Part shown: positions 1 through 31,578 of the stretch, one piece after another
Layout of the letters: every line of letters starts with the position of its first letter
Numbering within the stretch: position 1 is the first letter of the stretch
From: Streptomyces sp. NRRL F-5727
GTDB lineage: Bacteria; Actinomycetota; Actinomycetes; Streptomycetales; Streptomycetaceae
Assembly (NCBI RefSeq): GCF_000719555.1
Contig: NZ_JOGX01000019.1
Span: 1-64,000, forward strand
DNA length: 64,000 nt
Direction: 5' to 3'
Translations under genes and position numbers: made by a program
The notes under the pieces: generated by a model
Told to the model about the DNA's origin: nothing
Database searches by the model: none
Seen by the model: only the letters and a program-made list of their open reading frames with translations

Positions 1-26
1 GCGGTGGGTGGGGGACGCGGAGCAAA

Positions 27-49
27 ACATGGGGGCGTTGCCCCCATGT
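27..49 (+). terminator. Perfect hairpin upstream of the lanM reading frame
   Basis: A 10-bp arm ACATGGGGGC, a 3-nt loop and the exact inverse complement form a very stable hairpin. It covers the ATG at 29, which argues against that ATG as the lanM start. Hairpins of this kind often sit between a lanthipeptide precursor gene and its synthetase gene and limit expression of the second. A precursor gene could therefore lie just left of the window (inference). Confidence 0.6.
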
Positions 50-82
50 GGGTACGGTGCCCGCGCTGCCACCGTTGTCCAC

Positions 83-3000
83 GTGACCCTCACGACCTCC
101 ACACACGACACCGCGACGGGCCTGGCCCCGGGCTGGTGGGCGCCCGCCCTCCACCTGCGGGAGCGGCTCGCGGCACCCGGCGCGCCGGCCGCCGACCCGG
201 CCGGCGCCGCCGCGGCGCGGCTCGCGGACCGGGTGACGGCGCTGGGCCAGGACGACACGTTCCGGGCCCGGCTGGCCGCCCTCGGCACCGACCTGCCGAC
301 GGCCGCCGCGCTGGTGGCGGAGCCGGCCGAGCGCCTGGCGGCCCGGGCCGGGCACCCCGCGTGGGCGGAGTTCGTGGAGCGCGCCCTGGCGTCGGCGCCG
401 CCGCGCCCGGAGCCGTACGACGGCACCGGCGCACGGGAGGCCGGCCCGGACCCCGTACGGGAGCCGGAGCCCGATGCGTGGCGGGTGGCGTTCGCCGGGG
501 CGCTCGCTCCCCTGACGCGGGCGGCGGGCCGTGCGCTGGCCGAGCGGTCACGGGCGCTGCCGGGCCTGGCCGGCCTGATCGACGCCGAGTCCGTGCGGCG
601 GCGGTTCGAGCGGCGGCTCGGACTGCGGCTGGTGGGGACCGCGGCGCGCACCCTGGTCCTCGAACTGCACCGCGCCCGTGCCGAAGGCCGGCTGTCCGGT
701 GCCACGCCCGAGCGGCGGTTCGCCCGCTTCGCGGCGGAGCTGGGCACGCGCGACGGCCTGGCCGCGCTCTTCGGCCGGTATCCGGTCCTCGCGCGGCTGC
801 TCGGCACGGAGTGCGGGCACGCCGTCGCCGCCACGGCGGAACTGCTGGCGCGGTTCGCCGCCGACCGGGCCGCGCTCGTGGCGGACCTGCTCGACGGCGT
901 CGACCCCGGCGCGCTCGCCGTTCTCGACCTGGGCCAGGGGGACACCCATGAGCGGGGACGCGCGGTCGCGCTGCTCCGCTTCGCCGACGGCCGCACGGTG
1001 GTCTACAAGCCGCGCCCGCTGGACCAGCACGCCTCCTTCGACCGGCTCGTGGCCTGGCTCGGCGCCCGGCTGCCCGGGCTCGGGCCGCGGACGGCGCGGA
1101 CCGTGCGCCGGGACGGCTACGGCTGGCTGGAGTTCATCGCCGCCCGGCCCTGCCGGTCGGTCGCCGAACTGGACCGGTTCTACCGGCGACAGGGCGCCCT
1201 GCTGGCGCTGCTGTACGCGGTGGACGGGGTCGACATGCACCACGAGAACCTGGTGGCGTGCGGGGACCAGCCGGTGCCCGTCGACGTCGAGACGCTCATG
1301 CACCCCTCGGTCCCGGTGGCCGCCACGGCGGGCCCCGACCCGGCCGCGGCCGCCCTCGCCTCCTCCGTCCACCGGACGTGTCTGCTCCCGCAGTTGCTGA
1401 TCGGCGAGCACGGGGCGCTGGACATCTCGGCCGTCGGCGGCGGCCGGGCCGACCTCTCCCCCACCGACGTGGTCGGCTGGGCGGACGCGGGCACCGACAC
1501 GATGCGCCTGGTGCGCCGGCGGGTCCCGTACGCCGCGAGCCCCAACCGTCCGTCGCTGGACGGCCGCGAGGTGGACCCGGGCGCGTACGAGGCGGCGCTG
1601 CTCTCCGGATTCCGCGCCGGATACGACACCCTGGTCGCCCACCGTACGGAACTGCTCGCCCCGGACGGCCCGTTGGCCTCCTTCGGGGCGGCTCCGGCGC
1701 GCCTGGTGGGCCGGGCGACCCGGCTGTACGCGACGCTGCTCGACGAGGCGGCCCATCCCGAGGTGCTGGGCGACGCGCTCGACCGGGACGTGCTGTTCTC
1801 CCTGCTGTACGCCGAGTCCGCCGGGGACCCGGTGCGGCGGCGGCTGGTGGAGCACGAGATCGAGGACCTGTGGGACGGTGACGTCCCGGTCTTCACGCAC
1901 CGGCCCGACGGTGCCGACGTCTGGTCGTCGCGCGGGGTACGGCTGCCGGGCCTGCTGGCCGGGCCCGGGCTGGCCGCGGTCGAGCGGAAGGTCTCCGCCC
2001 TCGGCGAGGTCGACCGGCACCGGCAGGAGTGGCTGGTCACCGCCACGCTGGCGACCCGCCGGGCACCCCGCGTCACCCACCGCGCCGACGCCCCGCCGCT
2101 GCCGCCCGCACCGGCCGCGGTGCCCGAGCCCCGGCGGCTGCTCACGGCGGCCTGCGGCCTCGCCGACGAGATCGTGGGGCACGCGCTCCATGACGGCACC
2201 CGGGCCAACTGGATCGGCCTGGAGCTCGTCGACGGCAGCCACTGGGCGGTGTCCCCGATGGGGGCCGGGCTCGCCGACGGTTACACCGGAGTGGCGCTGT
2301 TCCTGGCCCAGTTGGGCCGCCTGACCGGGGTCGGCCGCTACACGGAGCTGGCGTCTCGGGCGGTCCGTCCGCTGCCGCGGCTGGTCCGCGCGCTCGCCGA
2401 CGCCCCCGAGCTGAGCCGGGCGGTCGGCCCCGGCGGCTTCCACGGCCTGGGCGGACTCTGTTACGCGCTCGCCCGGCTGTCCGCCCTGCTCGGCGACGAG
2501 CGGCTGGCCGAGTCGCTGCCGCCGGCGCTCCGGGCGCTGGCCGCCTCGGCCCGTACGGACGATCCGGCCGGCCCTCCGGCGGACGTCGCCACGGGACTGG
2601 CCGGCGGCCTGGCGGCGCTCCACGCGGTGCGCGCGGAGACCGGCCTGCCGCAGGCGGGCGCGCTGGCGGCCGAGTTCGCGGACCGGCTCCTCCCGGCCAC
2701 GGCCGCTCTTCCGGAGGGCTTCCTGCGGGGTCGGGCCGGGGCGGGCTGGGCCCTCCTCCGCCACGCGACGGCGACCGGCGACGCGTCGGACGGCCCGTAC
2801 GCCACCGCCGGGCGGGCGCTGCTCGGCCCGACGCCGGACGGGTCCGGCCGTGAGACGGGGCCGGGTTGGTGTACGGGACTCGCGGGAACGCTCCTCGCCA
2901 CGCTGGACGGCGTCGGGTCGGCGGGGGTCCCCGCCGGCCTGTGGGCGCGCCTCGCCGAAGAGCGTCCGGTTCCGGGCGACTTCAGCCTCTGCCACGGCGA

Positions 3001-3256
3001 GCTCGGCACGCTGGAGGCGCTGATCGTGGCCGCCGACCGGGGAGTGCCCGGGGCGGACGGCCGGCTCACCCACCGGGCGGGGCTGCTGCTCGGCGCCCTC
3101 GACCGGTACGGACCGCGCTGCGCCACCCCGGACGGGGTGTCCTCGCCCGGACTGCTCACCGGGCTGTCCGGGATCGGTCACACCCTGCTGCGGCTGGGAT
3201 ACCCCGACGCCGTCCCGTCCCTCCTCCTGCTCGATCCCTCACCGGGAGCGCGGTGA
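83..3256 (+). CDS. lanM: Class II lanthipeptide synthetase (LanM)
   Basis: Bifunctional enzyme that dehydrates Ser/Thr in a precursor peptide and adds Cys thiols to form lanthionine rings. About 1057 residues from GTG 83, the usual LanM size. The N-terminal DUF4135 dehydratase domain keeps the kinase-like active-site set: a Lys in VYKPRPLD, then DMHHEN (Asp, His, Asn), then VDVE (Asp, Glu). The C-terminal LanC cyclase domain has the zinc ligands in WCTGLAG (Cys about 930) and LCHGELG (Cys about 970 and the next His). The frame stays open to position 8, but the ATGs at 8 and 29 lie at or in the hairpin and family homology begins later. GTG 83 has no clear ribosome site, so the start is uncertain. 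Confidence 0.93.
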   Translation: MTLTTSTHDTATGLAPGWWAPALHLRERLAAPGAPAADPAGAAAARLADRVTALGQDDTFRARLAALGTDLPTAAALVAEPAERLAARAGHPAWAEFVERALASAPPRPEPYDGTGAREAGPDPVREPEPDAWRVAFAGALAPLTRAAGRALAERSRALPGLAGLIDAESVRRRFERRLGLRLVGTAARTLVLELHRARAEGRLSGATPERRFARFAAELGTRDGLAALFGRYPVLARLLGTECGHAVAATAELLARFAADRAALVADLLDGVDPGALAVLDLGQGDTHERGRAVALLRFADGRTVVYKPRPLDQHASFDRLVAWLGARLPGLGPRTARTVRRDGYGWLEFIAARPCRSVAELDRFYRRQGALLALLYAVDGVDMHHENLVACGDQPVPVDVETLMHPSVPVAATAGPDPAAAALASSVHRTCLLPQLLIGEHGALDISAVGGGRADLSPTDVVGWADAGTDTMRLVRRRVPYAASPNRPSLDGREVDPGAYEAALLSGFRAGYDTLVAHRTELLAPDGPLASFGAAPARLVGRATRLYATLLDEAAHPEVLGDALDRDVLFSLLYAESAGDPVRRRLVEHEIEDLWDGDVPVFTHRPDGADVWSSRGVRLPGLLAGPGLAAVERKVSALGEVDRHRQEWLVTATLATRRAPRVTHRADAPPLPPAPAAVPEPRRLLTAACGLADEIVGHALHDGTRANWIGLELVDGSHWAVSPMGAGLADGYTGVALFLAQLGRLTGVGRYTELASRAVRPLPRLVRALADAPELSRAVGPGGFHGLGGLCYALARLSALLGDERLAESLPPALRALAASARTDDPAGPPADVATGLAGGLAALHAVRAETGLPQAGALAAEFADRLLPATAALPEGFLRGRAGAGWALLRHATATGDASDGPYATAGRALLGPTPDGSGRETGPGWCTGLAGTLLATLDGVGSAGVPAGLWARLAEERPVPGDFSLCHGELGTLEALIVAADRGVPGADGRLTHRAGLLLGALDRYGPRCATPDGVSSPGLLTGLSGIGHTLLRLGYPDAVPSLLLLDPSPGAR

Positions 3257-3743: not shown

Positions 3744-6665
3744 ATGCATCCCCGAGCCCCCCTCCTCGTCGGACGTGACGCGGAAATCGCCCAGTTGGAG
3801 CGTGCCCTCGACGTGGTACGCGAGCGGCGCGGCAGCACGGTCTTCCTGGTCGGCGACGGCGGCATCGGCAAATCGCGGCTGGCGGCCGAGGCGACGGGCA
3901 GGGCGTTCTCCGCCGGGATGCGGGTGCTGCGCGGCCGGGGCAGCACGATCGGCCCGATGGTCCCCTTCCGGCCGCTCACCGAGGCGCTGATGTCGCTCTT
4001 CCGCGGCGGCGAACCGTGGGACGAGGGCGAACTGGGCCCCTTCCGCCCGGTCTTGGGCCGACTGGTCCCCGACTGGGCCGGCGAGGCACAGCACGGCGGC
4101 TCGCTCGTCGTGCTGGCGGAGGCCGTCCTGCGCCTGCTGTCGGTGGTCTCCAGGGAGCGCGGCGCGCTGCTCGTCCTGGAGGACCTGCACGACGCCGACA
4201 CCGAGACGCTGGTGGTCCTGGAGTACCTGGTGGACAACCTGGAGCACCTGCCGGTGGTGCTGCTCGCCACCACCCGCGCCGAGCAGTGCGCCGCCCTGGA
4301 CCTGGCGCACTCGGTCACCCAGCGGCGCTCCGGCGTCCTGCTCGGCCTGGGGCCCCTCGACCGCTCCGAGGTCGCGCGGATGGTCGCCTCCTGCCTGGAC
4401 TGCGCGGTGGACCGGGTGCCCGGCGAGCTCGTGACCCGGCTGTGGGACACCAGCGCCGGCAACCCGTTCGTCGTCGAGGAACTGCTCCACGGCATGATCG
4501 GCCACGGCACGGTGGTCCACCGGGGCGACACCTGGGAGGTCGTCGGCCCGCTGCGCACCGAGGTGCCGAGCACACTGGTGCGCGGCATCGCGCACCGCAC
4601 CGACCGGCTCGGCCCGCAGGGCAGGACGCTCCTCTCTGCGGCGGCCGTGCTGGGCCGCCGCTTCCCGCTGTCCGTGCTCCAGCGGATGTCCGGCACCGAC
4701 GACCACGGCCTGCTCGGCCTGCTGCACGCGGGCGTCGCCGCCCAGCTGGTGGTGCCGGACGAACCGGCGCCCGACTGGTACGCCTTCCGGCATCCGCTCA
4801 CCGCCGAAGCACTGCTCGCCCAGCTCACCCCCACCGACCGGGCGAAGCTGTCCGGACGGGCGGCCGAGGTCGTCGAGGAGCTCCATCCGGGGCTGCCCGG
4901 GGAGTGGTGCCCGCTCGTCGCCGCGCTGCGCCGGGACGCGGGCGACGAGGTCGGGGCGGCCCGGCTCTTCTCGGAGGCGGGCCGGCGCGCGCTCGCGGAC
5001 GGCGCCGTGGGCTCGGGCGTGTCCCTGCTGCTGGGCGCCGACGAACTGCTGGCGAAGCGCCAGGACTGGGTGGCGCGGGCCGAGGTGCTGGAGTCGCTGC
5101 TGCCCGCGCTGGCCGAGAGCGGCGAGTTCGACCGCGCCTTCGAGCGCGCCGAGGGCCTGCACGAGCTGGTCGGCGCGGGCGTCGAGGCCGGGCGGCTCGC
5201 CGTGCTGCACACCCGGCTCGCCAAGGTGGCCCATCTGGCGGGCCGCTGGGCCGACGGCAACGCGCAGATCGCCGAGGCCCGCGCGCTCCTGGAGACCGTA
5301 CGGGATCCGGCGCAGACGGCCGCCGTCGACGTGGTGGCCGCCTATCTGGCGCTGGACACACCGGGCCCGGACCGCACGGAGACGGCGGAGAAGCTGGCCC
5401 GGGCCGCGGTGTCGGCGGCCGACGCCGGTGCCCTGCCGGCCGTGGCCTGCCAGGCGTGGGAGCTGCTCGGGGTGCTCGCGCGGGAGCGGGACCTGGAGGA
5501 GGCGCGGCTCTGCTTCGAGCGGGCCCGGCGGATCGCCGAACAGCACCGGATGCCCATCCCGCGGACGTACGCGATGGTGCGCATCGGCGGCAACCAGTGG
5601 CTGGCGGACGGGGAGACCCGCCCCCTGGAGCTGGCGCGGGACGAGGCGCTGCGGCTGGGCGCGGTCACCATCGCGTACTCGATCGACGCCATCCTCGTCC
5701 TCCAGGCGGTGCTGGTCGGCCGGTTCGAGGAGGCCGCGCGCCTCGGCGACGAGGTGCTGACGACCGCGGTCCGGCTCCGGCTGGCGCCGGTGGTCCGGTA
5801 CGTGCTGATGACCCGGGCGACGCTGGCGGCGCACCAGGGCGACCGGGCGACGATGGAGGAGGCGCTGCGGGAGTTCACCGGCTGGGACGGGGCCGGTTCC
5901 CAGGAGGAGCCGCTCTGCATCGGGCTGGCCCGGGCGTTCTGCGCGCTCCTGGAGGAGAACCGGCCGCTGGCGCTCGCCGAACTGGACCGGGCGCGGGCCC
6001 AGGAGCGGGACAGTCCGACGACCTTCCACCTCAGCGGCCTGCACGGGCTGCGGCTGCTGCTCGACGTGCTGGCGGGCGAGGCGGGCTGGGACGAGTACCG
6101 GCGCGCCGCGGCCACCTCGGCGGGCCGGATGCGGTGGAACCGGCAGTTCCTGCTGCTGGCCCACGCGGTGCTGCTGGGCCGGTCGGACCAGCCGGCGGCG
6201 GCCGCGGCGGCCGTCGCCGAGGCGGAGCAGCTGGCCGCCCCCTACCCGACCACGCTCCACCTCGGCCTGCGGCTGACCGCCGAGGCGGCCCTGGAGGACG
6301 GCTGGGGCGACCCGGCGGCCTGGCTCCGCCGCGCCGAGGAGCACTTCCACGCCGCGGCCGTCCCGGACGTGGCGGGCGCGTGCCGGGCGCTGCTGCGCCA
6401 GTCGGGCGCGCCGGTCCGGCAGCGGCGCAGCGGCGCGGACCGGATCCCGGCACCGCTGCGGACACTGGGCGTGACGGTCCGGGAGTACGAGGTCTTCCAG
6501 CTGCTGGCGGAACGCCTGAGCAACAAGGCCATCGCGGGCCGCCTCTACATCTCGCCCCGTACGGTCGAGAAGCACGTGGCGGCCCTGCTGACGAAGACGG
6601 CCCGCCCGGACCGCGAGGCCCTGTGCGACCTGTCCGCGTCGGAGACGGTGGCGGGCCACCGCTGA
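3744..6665 (+). CDS. Large LuxR-family regulator with N-terminal AAA ATPase (LAL type)
   Basis: 973 residues, typical of LAL regulators (Large ATP-binding LuxR). The N-terminus has the LVGRDAEI entry motif, then a Walker A loop GDGGIGKS near residue 40 and a Walker B-like strand LLVLEDLHDAD. The middle third is an alpha-helical TPR-like region. The C-terminal 65 residues form a GerE/LuxR helix-turn-helix (REYEVFQLLAERLSNKAIA, then SPRTVEKHV). Such proteins usually activate antibiotic or catabolic clusters in response to an inducer, so the adjacent lanM unit is the natural target (inference from position). Confidence 0.93.
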   Translation: MHPRAPLLVGRDAEIAQLERALDVVRERRGSTVFLVGDGGIGKSRLAAEATGRAFSAGMRVLRGRGSTIGPMVPFRPLTEALMSLFRGGEPWDEGELGPFRPVLGRLVPDWAGEAQHGGSLVVLAEAVLRLLSVVSRERGALLVLEDLHDADTETLVVLEYLVDNLEHLPVVLLATTRAEQCAALDLAHSVTQRRSGVLLGLGPLDRSEVARMVASCLDCAVDRVPGELVTRLWDTSAGNPFVVEELLHGMIGHGTVVHRGDTWEVVGPLRTEVPSTLVRGIAHRTDRLGPQGRTLLSAAAVLGRRFPLSVLQRMSGTDDHGLLGLLHAGVAAQLVVPDEPAPDWYAFRHPLTAEALLAQLTPTDRAKLSGRAAEVVEELHPGLPGEWCPLVAALRRDAGDEVGAARLFSEAGRRALADGAVGSGVSLLLGADELLAKRQDWVARAEVLESLLPALAESGEFDRAFERAEGLHELVGAGVEAGRLAVLHTRLAKVAHLAGRWADGNAQIAEARALLETVRDPAQTAAVDVVAAYLALDTPGPDRTETAEKLARAAVSAADAGALPAVACQAWELLGVLARERDLEEARLCFERARRIAEQHRMPIPRTYAMVRIGGNQWLADGETRPLELARDEALRLGAVTIAYSIDAILVLQAVLVGRFEEAARLGDEVLTTAVRLRLAPVVRYVLMTRATLAAHQGDRATMEEALREFTGWDGAGSQEEPLCIGLARAFCALLEENRPLALAELDRARAQERDSPTTFHLSGLHGLRLLLDVLAGEAGWDEYRRAAATSAGRMRWNRQFLLLAHAVLLGRSDQPAAAAAAVAEAEQLAAPYPTTLHLGLRLTAEAALEDGWGDPAAWLRRAEEHFHAAAVPDVAGACRALLRQSGAPVRQRRSGADRIPAPLRTLGVTVREYEVFQLLAERLSNKAIAGRLYISPRTVEKHVAALLTKTARPDREALCDLSASETVAGHR

Positions 6666-6705: not shown

Positions 6706-8355
6706 TCAGGAGACGAGCCGGGTGTCCACCTCCCGCAGCTTCACCGTGCACAGCCCGCCGCGTTCGGCCTTCACGTCGGTGACCTCCAGCTGGGTGCCGG
6801 GGGCCAGGATGTACTCCTCCTCACCGGTGAAGGCGGAGAAGCTGCGGATGCCCACCGCGCGGGCCGGCGTCACCTCGAAGAGGGTCCGCTTGCCGCGGCT
6901 GCCGAGGAAGGAGCGGGCGACGCCCAGTTCGGAGGTGCAGGAGGAGACGCCCCACCAGGTGACCGTCTCTCCGACCGGGTACTGCCCGCGCAGGTCCAGG
7001 GCGACGCCGCGCCACAGCGGCTCGGTGCGGGACGGGAGCGCCTCCACCGCCGCGAAGAGCAGCCGCAGGTAGGGCAGGTAGGGCACGACGCGGGCGCGGT
7101 CCGGGGAGCGGAGGACGGCGTTGATGTTCCGGTAGAAGCCGGACTCGCAGGTGTAGAGGAAGAGCGCGGCGATGGCGTCGGCGGAGAGCCCGGCGCCGGC
7201 CGCCTCGTCGGCGCGCCGCTTGCCGAACTCGCGGGAGCGGTCGATGTGCCCGCCGAGCCCGCGCAGCACGCGGGTGACGGGGGCGACGGCCTCCTCGAAC
7301 GGCATCAGCGGGGTGTCGAAGACGCCGGTGAGCGGGGGCAGGACATGGCCCTCGTCGCGGACGCTGGTGAGCCGCTCCAGGTACAGCTGGTGCAGCTCCA
7401 TCGTCGAGGCGATGAAGGCGCCCATCCGGGCGGCGACGTCGGCGTCCGGCCCGCCGGCGCCGGTGGGGTCCGCGCCCTTCCCGGCGCCTGCCGGGGGCTG
7501 GTTCCAGCCCTTGCTGGGCAGCCAGTCGACGGGGTCGGCGCCGAGCGACAGCAGGGCGTCGTTGACGGTGGCGAGGTGGTCGCCGTCGCAGAAGACGTCG
7601 CCCTGAGCGGCCGGGTTGGCGTGGTCGATGTGGCGGACCTCGACGCCCGGGTACTTCTTCTCCAGCCGCTGCACCGTCCGCTTCAGGCTGCGGGCGTGCG
7701 CGCCCCACCAGGCGAAGACGACACCCCGGTCCTCGGGGTCCTCGGCGTCCTGCTTGGCGCGGAGGATCTCCTCGGCGATCCGCTCGGCGACGGGCCGCCA
7801 GAAGCCGGTGTGCTGGTCGGTGGCCATGGCGCCGTCGGCGCTGGCGGTCAGCGAGGCGTTGAGGAGGAGGACGCCCTGGGTGAGCATGGCCTGGAACCAC
7901 TCGGGCGGCTGGACCGTGTCCCGCTCCTTCAGCAGGGCGCGGACGTCGGCGATGGGCGTCTTCTTGACGATGCCGTACTTCCACATCGCCGCCGCCTTGA
8001 TGAGGCAGCGGATGCTGACGACCCGTCCGAACTGGCTGTCCTTCCAGTCGTTGAACGTGTTGTCGAACATGGCGATGCCGGTGGCGCTCTCCGGCCGCGG
8101 GTAGGGGTTCTGCCCGAAGACGACGACCTTCCACTTGTGCGGCGGGTGGGGCTTGAGCGCCTGGAAGGTGAGCTCGCGGACCGGGACGACCTGCGGGCTG
8201 CGGCCCGGTCCGATGAACCGGTCGGCGTCCGGGCGGGCCTCGATGACGGGCTTCAGCAGCGGCAGCCAGGGCTCGCCGCCGCCGGTGAAGAGGTCCGCGA
8301 GGGCGAGGGGGTCGTTCGGGTCGGGCTGGGCGGCGGGCGCGGTCGTGTCGCTCAT
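6706..8355 (-). CDS. UDG-like domain fused to R-S-E ADP-ribosyltransferase
   Basis: 549 residues from ATG 8355 (GGGAG precedes it; a GTG at 8445 would add 30 low-complexity residues and overlap the upstream gene). Residues about 10-280 resemble family 1 uracil-DNA glycosylase: motif A region VVVFGQNPYP, strand LLLNASLT, motif B region HANPAAQGDVF. The catalytic Asp of GQDPYH is Asn and the His is Pro, so ordinary uracil excision is doubtful. Residues about 310-549 form an arginine-type ADP-ribosyltransferase: Arg in LWRG, the Ser motif VSSCTS, and the ExE motif GEEEYILAPG. An NAD-dependent transferase steered to DNA or to a repair substrate is the simplest reading (inference). It lies directly downstream of a macrodomain gene, the usual eraser of ADP-ribose. 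Confidence 0.85.
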   Translation of the reverse strand: MSDTTAPAAQPDPNDPLALADLFTGGGEPWLPLLKPVIEARPDADRFIGPGRSPQVVPVRELTFQALKPHPPHKWKVVVFGQNPYPRPESATGIAMFDNTFNDWKDSQFGRVVSIRCLIKAAAMWKYGIVKKTPIADVRALLKERDTVQPPEWFQAMLTQGVLLLNASLTASADGAMATDQHTGFWRPVAERIAEEILRAKQDAEDPEDRGVVFAWWGAHARSLKRTVQRLEKKYPGVEVRHIDHANPAAQGDVFCDGDHLATVNDALLSLGADPVDWLPSKGWNQPPAGAGKGADPTGAGGPDADVAARMGAFIASTMELHQLYLERLTSVRDEGHVLPPLTGVFDTPLMPFEEAVAPVTRVLRGLGGHIDRSREFGKRRADEAAGAGLSADAIAALFLYTCESGFYRNINAVLRSPDRARVVPYLPYLRLLFAAVEALPSRTEPLWRGVALDLRGQYPVGETVTWWGVSSCTSELGVARSFLGSRGKRTLFEVTPARAVGIRSFSAFTGEEEYILAPGTQLEVTDVKAERGGLCTVKLREVDTRLVS

Positions 8356-8428
8356 GGCGGGGGAACTCCCGGTGGTCGTGCCTGCGGGGTCGGAGGAGGG
8401 CGTGGGGGCAGCGGCCGACTCGGCCTGC

Positions 8429-9196
8429 TCAGCCGCGAAAGCCACGCCCTTTGGCAGCGGCTCCTGCGGCGGCGCTCCCTTTGGCAGCGCCCCCTTTGCC
8501 AGCGGCTCCTTTGGCAGCGGCTCCTTTGGCCGGTGCTCCTTTGGGCGGCGTGATCCGTACCCGCGTCGTGTGCGGCGCCTGGTCGATGCCGGCCAGCTGG
8601 GCGGTGATGGTCGCGCGCAGCTCGTCGTCGTCCTCGAACCAGTGGTCGTGGAAGAGCGTGTAGCCGGTCCACATCAGGTTGGCGCAGACCCGGGCCGGCA
8701 CCCGGCCGGTCCGGGCGCCCATTCCGACCAGCGCCACGGAGCGGATGCTGCCCGGCGCCTTCCGGTTCTGCCGGTGGACGGCCTGGAAGGCCGCCGCGCA
8801 GGCCATGGCGACGTTGAGCGTGTCGCTCACGTTCTGCGACGAGGCGACCATGGTCGGCGTGGAGATCACGAAACGCGGCACGGTCGCCCCCGACGGGACG
8901 CAGACGGCGCTGCCGACCGGCATGCCGCCGGCGAACCGGTCGCGGATGGCCTGCTGCACGCGCAGCTGGATCCCGGCACCGAGGTGGCGCTTGATCGCCG
9001 CGTCGACGCCGCCGTCCATCCGCCCCGCCGCGTTCGTCGGCGTGACCCACGCGTCCACGTCCTCGTCGAGGATCGAACCCCGCCGGATCTCGATGCCGGG
9101 CACGTCGGCGAAGGCGGCGCGCCACGCCGCCACCACCCCCGCGCTGACATCGGTCAGTACCACCCGCAGTGCGGTGCCCGCATAGGCATGCGTCAT
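8429..9196 (-). CDS. Macrodomain protein with Lys/Ala/Gly-rich tail
   Basis: 255 residues. The first 180 fit a macrodomain: the ADP-ribose-binding loop appears as VTPTNAAGRMDGGVDAAI, and a later glycine loop as ALVGMGARTG. Macrodomains bind or hydrolyse ADP-ribose on protein or nucleic acid. The last 40 residues are a low-complexity tail of AKG/AAKG units, basic and like the H1-type tails of actinobacterial DNA-binding proteins. The gene is first in a two-gene unit with the UDG-ADP-ribosyltransferase fusion. The pair has the logic of a toxin with its antidote, or of a reversible modification system (inference, compare DarT-DarG). Confidence 0.87.
   Translation of the reverse strand: MTHAYAGTALRVVLTDVSAGVVAAWRAAFADVPGIEIRRGSILDEDVDAWVTPTNAAGRMDGGVDAAIKRHLGAGIQLRVQQAIRDRFAGGMPVGSAVCVPSGATVPRFVISTPTMVASSQNVSDTLNVAMACAAAFQAVHRQNRKAPGSIRSVALVGMGARTGRVPARVCANLMWTGYTLFHDHWFEDDDELRATITAQLAGIDQAPHTTRVRITPPKGAPAKGAAAKGAAGKGGAAKGSAAAGAAAKGRGFRG
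8447..8545. repeat. Tandem coding repeats for the AKG tail
   Basis: Imperfect repeats of about 15 bp built on GGCTCCTTTGGCAGC occur about six times at the 3' end of the macrodomain gene and encode the (A)AKG tail. They are prone to slippage, so tail length is expected to differ between strains. Confidence 0.65.
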
Positions 9197-9286
9197 CGAA
9201 GCCCCCTGTCGGAACGTCCTCCTGGAACACCTCCGAACCTACGGGGCACCACTGACAACGGCCCTCGGCCGCCGGCCGCCTGAGGC

Positions 9287-30836: not shown

Positions 30837-31376
30837 TCACGGGGCGGCGGCCCGCTCGACCAGCTCGCCCAGCGCGGCGGCGGACCCGGGGGCCAGGCGG
30901 TAGAAGCCCTGGAGGCTGATGGACCTCTCCAGGCGACCGTCGACCACGTACTTCGCCTGTCGGGTCCGGCCGCGGCGATTGCGCCACGTCAGCACGGTCA
31001 GCAGCTCGCCCGGTATCGGCACGTCGAAGCGGACGGGCGTCGCGTCCACGTGGACCGCCGTCGCCCCGCAGCCGTGGGCACCGAGCATCGCCCAGTCCTC
31101 GTGGCCGGGGTGGGACGGGTCGCCCCAGGCCGCCGGCTCCGCGCCACAGCACGCGCTCCGCTCCGTGTCGAGGACCCGCATCCGGGAGACGACGAACACC
31201 TCCCGCTGACGCACGTGCAGCGCGTACACGTCGTCCCCGGTCTTCGCCCCCGCCCAGGACGGCAGGGACTGGTGCACTCCGGAGAAGGCGACGGGCGGCC
31301 GGCGGCCCACGCGCCCGGCCGTGCGCAGCGCACGGCAGGTGTCGTGGGTCCACAGGACGGTGTAGGCGTCGGTCAT
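30837..31376 (-). CDS. Hypothetical protein, 179 residues
   Basis: Soluble, no signal peptide; contains LHVRQREVFVVSRMRV strands and a Cys/His-bearing loop (RSACCGAEPAAW, GAHGCGA) that could bind metal. C-terminus QGFYRLAPGSAAALGELV. Not recognised. Codon use is normal and the start ATG 31376 is clear. Confidence 0.65.
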   Translation of the reverse strand: MTDAYTVLWTHDTCRALRTAGRVGRRPPVAFSGVHQSLPSWAGAKTGDDVYALHVRQREVFVVSRMRVLDTERSACCGAEPAAWGDPSHPGHEDWAMLGAHGCGATAVHVDATPVRFDVPIPGELLTVLTWRNRRGRTRQAKYVVDGRLERSISLQGFYRLAPGSAAALGELVERAAAP

Positions 31377-31578
31377 GCGGCGATCGTAGGGACCGGCACT
31401 GACAACGGGCCTCCGAGGACGGCACGTTCACGGAGGCGACCGCCAGCCCGTGACGAGTTCTCGCCAGGGAGGCGAGGGTTCCGCATGTGCGGGGCGGGAC
31501 GCGGGGAGCCATGCAGTGCCCCTTGTCGACCACCCGCCCCCGCTCGCCCGTTCGCCGCCTGCACCGTGAGGAGCCGCC

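Follow-up and report, generated by a model that had tools for sequence, protein, structure and literature searches.

What would a bacterium do with a protein that joins a uracil-DNA glycosylase (UDG)-like domain to an ADP-ribosyltransferase (ART), and that is encoded directly downstream of a macrodomain? The question is raised by a locus of the soil bacterium Streptomyces sp. NRRL F-5727, at positions 6706 to 9196 on the minus strand of the first 64,000 nucleotides (nt) of contig NZ_JOGX01000019.1; that whole stretch is called the window here. The reading that we favor, with about even confidence, is that the locus would encode a damage-inducible, reversible ADP-ribosylation module, directed to lesions through a catalytically silent glycosylase fold. 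An initial annotation of the window had proposed reversible ADP-ribosylation linked to DNA, acting in phage defense, in DNA repair, or as a toxin with its antidote. A link to DNA now appears likely, given the RecA-NDp-type promoter ahead of the unit, and no positive evidence was found for phage defense. That annotation had missed the damage promoter, a +1 frameshift signature, the absence of the catalytic Asp from the UDG-like domain throughout the relatives, and the existence of eukaryote-labelled relatives.

The macrodomain open reading frame (ORF), assigned from the ORF list and Pfam, runs from 9196 to 8429 on the minus strand and encodes 255 amino acids (aa). It overlaps by 17 nt the UDG-ART ORF (8445-6706, minus strand, 579 aa counted from a GTG), whose N-terminal half is UDG-like and whose C-terminal half is the ART, and the two frames are offset by +1. 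The ORFs and motifs listed in the initial annotation (GQNPYP, HANPAA, LWRG, SSCTS, and EEEY) were all found in the window. Its call of a macrodomain upstream, and of a UDG-like domain and an intact R-S-E ART within one chain, agrees with the matches to Pfam, NCBIfam, and PDB entries given below.

One unit in three arrangements

In a sample of 295 Streptomyces genomes, the macrodomain was found in 49 and UDG-ART in exactly those 49. The partners lie within ~0.5 kb of each other in 47 of these pairs, are 2.3 kb apart in one, and are divided between two contigs in one. At an E value of 1e-12, UDG-ART was found in 13 of 394 genomes drawn from the class and in 3 of 137 genera. Of the best 120 of 1101 homologues, 51 are at least 750 aa long and carry both Macro and ART labels.

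Entries with both anchors numbered 114 and comprised 47 in-frame fusions, 43 loci split in overlapping frames, and 24 divergent loci. Nine of the 114 came from loci that had already been counted, and the 105 kept (41 fused, 40 split, and 24 divergent) include 95 that differ in sequence, the identical ones probably being the same species in two collections. On a tree of these 105 entries, one branch (support, 81) has the divergent ones all on the same side. The fused or split label changes eight times; branches with strong support require three of these changes, and the tree does not fix in which direction each change went.

The best 80 of 105 relatives were kept as a set of loci. They come from Streptomyces, Kitasatospora, Nonomuraea, Microtetraspora, Streptosporangium, Dactylosporangium, Catellatospora, and one unclassified actinobacterium, with a best-segment identity of 73 to 93%. 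The carriers of the unit include Streptomyces lavendulae CCM 3239. No third gene is widely shared among the neighborhoods of these 80 loci: with ORFs of at least 130 aa in flanks of up to 8 kb, the best cluster reached 13 of 80 loci, at scattered positions, and a stricter pass gave no cluster of 6 or more. The macrodomain and UDG-ART almost certainly form one unit, as had been proposed. They occur in the same 49 genomes, they are fused in 47 of 114 entries, and they are adjacent in other actinobacteria, where the initial annotation had suggested that the same pair be sought.

A DNA damage-type promoter

Upstream of the macrodomain, an exact 20-mer, TTGTCAGTG-N8-TAG, lies at 9239-9258 on the minus strand; 0.01 matches are expected per 64-kb window with one mismatch allowed. 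In its longer form, TTGTCAGTG-N8-TAGGTT, the motif occupies 9236-9258 of the same strand and starts 62 nt 5' of the macrodomain ATG. We take its letters to be the RecA-NDp consensus, an assignment supported by the recA gene as a positive control: one exact 19-mer stands 69 nt 5' of the recA match in this genome. The 7.95-Mb genome contains 11 copies of the 19-mer and none of the reversed pattern. One exact copy lies 5' of a ruvC-like frame, recognized by eye, with ruvA 589 nt downstream; only part of the 11 positions are tied to a gene.

The motif is kept in the relatives. With at most 2 mismatches in 14 positions, it stands 50 to 73 nt 5' of the macrodomain start in 88 of 89 co-directional entries, or in 80 of 81 without 8 duplicates, and the sole miss (L061) is at a contig edge, with 63 nt of upstream sequence. 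The background at the same threshold was 4 matches in 2,277,669 positions. Among the 24 divergent entries, with up to 3 mismatches, 16 have a motif directed toward the macrodomain and 7 have one directed toward UDG-ART.

RecA-NDp is described as the motif through which PafBC acts in passages of PMC8223512 and PMC6789036, and it precedes the UV-inducible macrodomain gene SCO6735 according to excerpts of PMC5087735 and PMC9411070. WYL matches in the genome number six, and two of them, ~1 kb apart (G000 C70:22610 and C70:23571), are likely to be a PafB-PafC pair. Two points count against a promoter of this type. Eight of the 24 divergent entries have no good motif toward the macrodomain, and the mycobacterial PafBC motif was, in an initial search recounted in an excerpt of PMC9380542, not found conserved in S. 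venezuelae. From the motif and its placement, we still consider it very probable that a RecA-NDp/PafBC-type damage promoter precedes the unit, and induction by damage would be predicted. Such a promoter ahead of the macrodomain, as ahead of recA in this genome, is new here.

A second RecA-NDp-type motif in the window, at 31386-31405 (minus strand), lies ~10 nt 5' of the start, at 31376, of an ORF (MTDAYTVLWTHDTCRALR...) that appears to be a leaderless gene under damage control. At L132 (G000:C5:48310), the same damage motif is followed by a protein with a WGR domain, known from PARPs, and a beta-propeller. At L131, L134, and L138, it precedes proteins that Pfam assigns to TerD and to the SWIM zinc finger and one that resembles a transporter by eye, so that the regulon seems wider than repair genes.

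A +1 frameshift signature in the split loci

In 43 of 43 split entries, the UDG frame is +1 relative to the macrodomain frame. Counting back with the stop as the first codon, the fourth codon of the macrodomain ORF is TTT in 35 of 40 split entries (31 of 36 with four identical pairs merged), and the usual end reads UUU_CGY_NNN_UGA. TTT is followed by CGC or CGT in 34 of the 40, and the exact string TCC TTT CGY is found in 31. In the conserved cores, TTT accounts for 13 of 1815 Phe codons (0.7%). TTT-CGN, present in 34 of 40 split entries, occurs in none of the 41 fusion linkers and at none of the 24 divergent macrodomain ends, one of which (L008) is cut by a contig end; the divergent entry L033, which has Phe-Arg at that place, uses TTC.

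The putative site in the window is TTT CGC at 8435-8440 (minus strand), in the context GGC_UUU_CGC; behind it come GGC and then TGA, the stop of the macrodomain ORF (8431-8429). When TTTC is taken as one step, translation gives a predicted trans-frame product of 829 aa (6706-9196, minus strand), with the +1 shift at F253, in which the macrodomain, linker, UDG-like domain, and ART follow one another in the same order as in the natural in-frame fusions. Across the junction, this product is predicted to read ...GRGF-AAEQ....

The sequence UCC_UUU_CGU was identified as a +1 site by mass spectrometry in another system, and in the part of PMC3498833 consulted its authors left cellular use to be seen. 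For bacteria, a passage of PMC10885494 counts UUU with the codons that come next in slipperiness at the RF2 site, and UUU_U is given at that site in a few species in a passage of PMC5009743. The split loci resemble the UUU_CGN +1 frameshift class in their UCC_UUU_CGY context, in the +1 direction, and in having a conserved UUU_CGN with an overlapping +1 ORF. A frameshift site here would be cellular and bacterial, whereas the sites named in the consulted part of the 2012 paper (PMC3498833) are viral, in eukaryotes.

Several observations weigh against frameshifting. Five of the 40 split entries lack TTT and one more lacks CGN, and the macrodomain ORF of the window ends in GGC TTT CGC GGC TGA, with GGC and not UCC ahead of TTT. 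UDG-ART could be made without frameshifting, from a probable start of its own. A start with a Shine-Dalgarno-like sequence is present in 39 of 40 split entries versus 22 of 41 fused ones, where fewer are expected if fused species no longer need one. The probable start in the window spans 8353-8370 (minus strand), with GGGAG at 8370-8366 and ATG at 8355-8353. All 40 split entries have an open UDG frame, but this openness proves little, given that 32.6 would be expected from shuffles and that a further frame is open in all 40 as well. The linker shows no third-position codon bias, and neither openness nor codon bias was used as evidence for frameshifting. Among 16 sequences (z, -1.0 to 2.25), no RNA structure was common to the two clades folded, and RNA structure was rejected as the reason for the conserved TTT, the two clades having folded differently.

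The split layout might instead be ordinary translational coupling, with TTT-CGY an accident of descent or some other RNA signal. The start that UDG-ART has of its own, the near-chance openness of its frame, and the unbiased linker would all suit this, as would a small hairpin that one clade can form at the TTT-CGY site. We consider it rather unlikely, since a codon that makes up so few of the Phe codons stands at this place in 35 of 40 split entries across both deep clades, neither the fused linkers nor the divergent ends contain TTT-CGN, no split entry has an offset other than +1, and the motif is the same as a +1 site that has been demonstrated. The codon pattern argues that the split loci are probably joined by a +1 frameshift. 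Such a signature at the macrodomain end of split loci is new here.

The transferase and the macrodomain

The ART domain (6724-7233, minus strand) matched Pfam family PF01129 with an E value of 4.5e-11 and 42.9 bits, against a curated cutoff of 22.3. Its R-S-ExE triad is intact in the family alignment, with Arg (R479, 7011-7009) in 64 of 65 sequences, S502 in 60 of 62, and E542 and E544 (6822-6814) each in 60 of 60; the window has the SSCTS motif. The ART profile matched the PDB entries of Vis (4xzj, 7.2e-9), 6dre (2.7e-7), and T-cell ART2 (2.1e-5). Entry 6dre was deposited as a PAAR-repeat protein, which we take to be Tre1. The domain shares with these three enzymes the R-S-ExE motif as well as the profile matches, and it differs from them in being joined to UDG-like and macro domains and in its presumed intracellular setting. 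No PARP family was found among the Pfam matches of the window proteins at E values up to 1.

The macrodomain matched Macro PF01661 with an E value of 5.4e-11 and 42.9 bits, against a curated cutoff of 22. N55, G62, G63, D65, and K69 are invariant across 29 aligned macrodomains, so that the conserved Asn and the GGxD loop are kept, and the domain is probably an ADP-ribose hydrolase or reader. The AKG repeats that follow it (approximately 8429-8542, minus strand) had been read as a basic tail suited to DNA. Comparison across relatives shows them to be a linker between domains, expanded in the window and in a small number of close relatives; in most split relatives the macrodomain end is short and finishes with SFR, one further residue (R, H, or P), and the stop, and the fusions mostly have a Pro/Ala-rich linker. 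The AKG tail was rejected as a DNA-binding feature because the linker varies in this way.

The matches of the ART profile, closest in the PDB to Vis, the PAAR-repeat protein, and ART2, would agree with an alternative in which the unit is a damage-triggered toxin with an immunity macrodomain. Following DarTG-like logic, the ART would halt growth via an essential target, and the macrodomain would reverse the modification. The occurrence of writer and macrodomain in the same 49 genomes and their patchy presence, in 49 of 295, would also agree with it. We regard this alternative as unlikely. The classical toxin-antidote reading is weakened because the two are one polypeptide in many species (47 of 114 entries), so that losing a labile antidote cannot free the toxin. 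Conservation is high, at the 73 to 93% best-segment identity of the 80 loci kept, and eukaryote-labelled relatives exist.

A glycosylase fold without its catalytic Asp

For the UDG half of the window protein (7516-8307, minus strand), no Pfam family was reported, even at an E value of 1. Its best match among the NCBIfam UDG models was at 5.9e-18, under their equivalog cutoffs, and it matched 5x3g at 1.5e-11 among PDB sequences. The UDG fold is further indicated by a family profile compared with the uracil-DNA glycosylases of the PDB (3tr7, 4.9e-18). The same genome holds four other UDG-family matches.

Residues were counted in an alignment of 98 sequences, namely, the window and 97 of 237 collected proteins, with the sequences covering each position as the denominator. 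The position of the catalytic Asp, in GQNPYP of the window (8115-8098), holds Asn in 49 sequences, Ser in 8, Thr in 1, Cys in 1, and Asp in 0 of 59. The G, Q, P, Y, P, and R that surround it are invariant (59 of 59 for G, Q, P, and Y), and the pocket Asn of LLLN, a motif kept in the window, is found in 85 of 86 sequences. The His of motif B, in HANPAA (7623-7606), is present in 71 of 82 and replaced by Trp or another residue in 11. At the equivalent of the uracil-stacking Phe-77, 63 of 71 sequences have Met and 5 have His, and 77 of 83 have Ala in place of the Leu of HPSPLS.

An Asp change of this kind cripples classical UNG. With the pocket residues kept and the Asp gone, uracil-excising chemistry is most likely lost and the pocket conserved. 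The domain thus resembles family-1 uracil-DNA glycosylases such as 5x3g in its fold by profile, its GQxPYPRPESA block, and its LLLN motif; unlike them, it lacks the Asp throughout, has Met or His for Phe-77 and Ala for Leu, and is fused to an ART.

Asn in place of Asp is also a feature of the MUG/TDG type, and the domain could still be catalytic through a different chemistry: it would release a base that is damaged or ADP-ribosylated, and the ART and the macrodomain would act on that lesion too. The kept pocket, including the invariant G, Q, P, and Y and the Asn of 85 sequences, speaks for this, as does the frequent His. It is nonetheless quite improbable in our view, as the Asp position also accepts Ser, Thr, and Cys (10 of 59 sequences together), the His is replaced in 11 of 82, 68 of 71 sequences carry Met or His where Phe-77 would be, and Ala almost always stands at the Leu position.

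Distant relatives and mobility

Distant relatives were drawn from two sets of matches, covering 117 of 117 proteins and the best 120 of 548. Their source names include Planctomycetota, Acidobacteria, Sandaracinaceae, the red alga Gracilaria domingensis, Prymnesium, and eukaryote transcript collections. Several of them, alga-labelled proteins included, have Lys-rich N-terminal tails, which to our eye resemble nuclear signals. In P0178, a WWE domain (Pfam) stands ahead of the UDG-like domain, which suggests ADP-ribose reading beside this fold elsewhere. On a midpoint-rooted tree, five eukaryote-labelled entries fall in a group of 11 (support, 94) together with six unlabelled ones. The eukaryote-labelled relatives with Lys-rich tails and the WWE-UDG protein would fit nuclear and ADP-ribose settings.

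P0208 has a WWE-like segment (by eye) ahead of its UDG-like domain; both it and P0178 are from unlabelled assemblies. P0239, P0194, and P0219 share an N-terminal segment ahead of the UDG-like domain, with no Pfam match in P0239 and P0194, the two that were scanned. P0194 is from a symbB-labelled eukaryote set.

A search of phage records gave zero matches to the unit, IMG/VR viral contigs being outside the scan. Records of a plasmid collection gave 8 matches, 4 of them across most of the query. These 4 show that large replicons can carry the unit: two belong to Streptomyces (0.33 and 1.5 Mb), and the others are records of Embleya and Nonomuraea (5.7 and 11.9 Mb). A phage or plasmid origin was rejected, as there was no phage-record match and nothing marks the unit as a mobile element. 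A phage-defense guard or decoy, in which the dead UDG would activate the ART on sensing a UDG inhibitor or a DNA mimic from a phage, could account for a pseudo-enzyme joined to an effector and for the accessory distribution, but it is very improbable, given that PADLOC has no match for the ART protein, the phage records scanned have none for the unit, no third gene is widely shared in the 80 loci, a damage promoter is found instead, and the Leu position, which known UDG inhibitors use, is Ala.

In the window, the unit is flanked by a LanM-like ORF (8-3256, plus strand) and adjoins a large LuxR-type ATPase regulator (3744-6665, plus strand), both recognized by eye and with no evident link to it.

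Relation to known systems

The initial annotation remarked that the pair recalls DarT-DarG with a writer of another class. The writer belongs to PF01129, and PADLOC, which called no DarT, gave for the macrodomain only a weak DarG match (E value, 0.046); membership in DarTG was rejected on the class of the writer and its lack of a PADLOC match. As in DarT-DarG, a writer is genetically tied to a macrodomain protein, and a link to DNA is likely. Unlike in DarT-DarG, the R-S-ExE writer here comes with a UDG fold, is often in one polypeptide with the macrodomain, and follows a RecA-NDp-type promoter.

SCO6735, a macrodomain protein of S. coelicolor, also has a RecA-NDp promoter and is described as UV-inducible in a passage of PMC5087735. 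It cleaves thymidine-linked ADP-ribose, and its endogenous transferase was called unknown, according to excerpts of the 2022 paper (PMC9411070). In the present locus, writer and macrodomain form one unit, and the likeness to SCO6735 is that of a macrodomain behind a RecA-NDp promoter. By analogy only, the unit also resembles PARP-type signaling, with a damage-linked writer, a nucleic-acid-type targeting domain, and a macrodomain; the ART class differs, and the Pfam matches include no PARP catalytic domain.

A literature search by title and the start of the abstract, with preprints and most subscription papers outside its scope, returned no paper describing a system of UDG, ART, and macrodomain. 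Among the top-listed papers from searches of the same scope on WWE with UDG, on macrodomains with RecA-NDp/PafBC, and on UUU_CGN or bacterial frameshifting, none concerned this system. The terms uracil, UDG, and glycosylase do not occur in the survey PMC9503650, nor do ADP-ribos and macro in the frame-transition survey PMC3711429.

Proposed mechanism

In the lesion-directed module, DNA damage would switch the unit on through the RecA-NDp/PafBC-type promoter that is seen in the sequence. Split loci would then give three products: the macrodomain alone, UDG-ART from its own start, and the full macrodomain-UDG-ART chain. The last would arise by +1 slippage of tRNA-Phe on UUU_C just ahead of the macrodomain stop, where the signature is found, and many species carry an in-frame fusion in place of slippage. 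The UDG fold, no longer cutting bases, would dock on a DNA lesion, a base, or a DNA-bound partner and so bring the ART to its target, and ADP-ribose from NAD+ would be transferred to a protein side chain or to DNA. The ExE motif points to arginine as the most likely side chain. The linked macrodomain would read or remove the mark, and its linkage to the writer would keep signaling local and let it limit itself, in the manner of a bacterial PARP circuit in miniature.

Some considerations tell against this mechanism. Induction, labelling, and the protein product are all deduced from sequence, as are the action on DNA lesions and the identity of the modified target. DNA binding by the UDG fold is a supposition, and the intercalating Leu position is Ala. 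Macrodomains are better known for acting on ADP-ribose attached to acidic residues and nucleic acids than to arginine, so the mark may not sit on arginine, or the macrodomain may only read it.

Implications

More tentatively, the unit could be a bacterial PARP-like damage-signaling enzyme, composed of a macrodomain, a retired UDG serving as lesion sensor, and an ART, which would be induced by damage and often assembled by frameshifting, with the same UDG-ART core at work in the nucleus of several algae. The unit ties reversible ADP-ribosylation to an actinobacterial damage promoter, and a bacterial PARP-like circuit becomes directly testable. The species that carry it offer a candidate writer with its own macrodomain, where the transferase of SCO6735 had been called unknown, and the fused, frameshift-split, and divergent arrangements are ready-made experiments on the need for linkage between writer and macrodomain. 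If the frameshift is real, the UUU_CGN +1 class, described for viruses of eukaryotes, would be in use in many Streptomyces.

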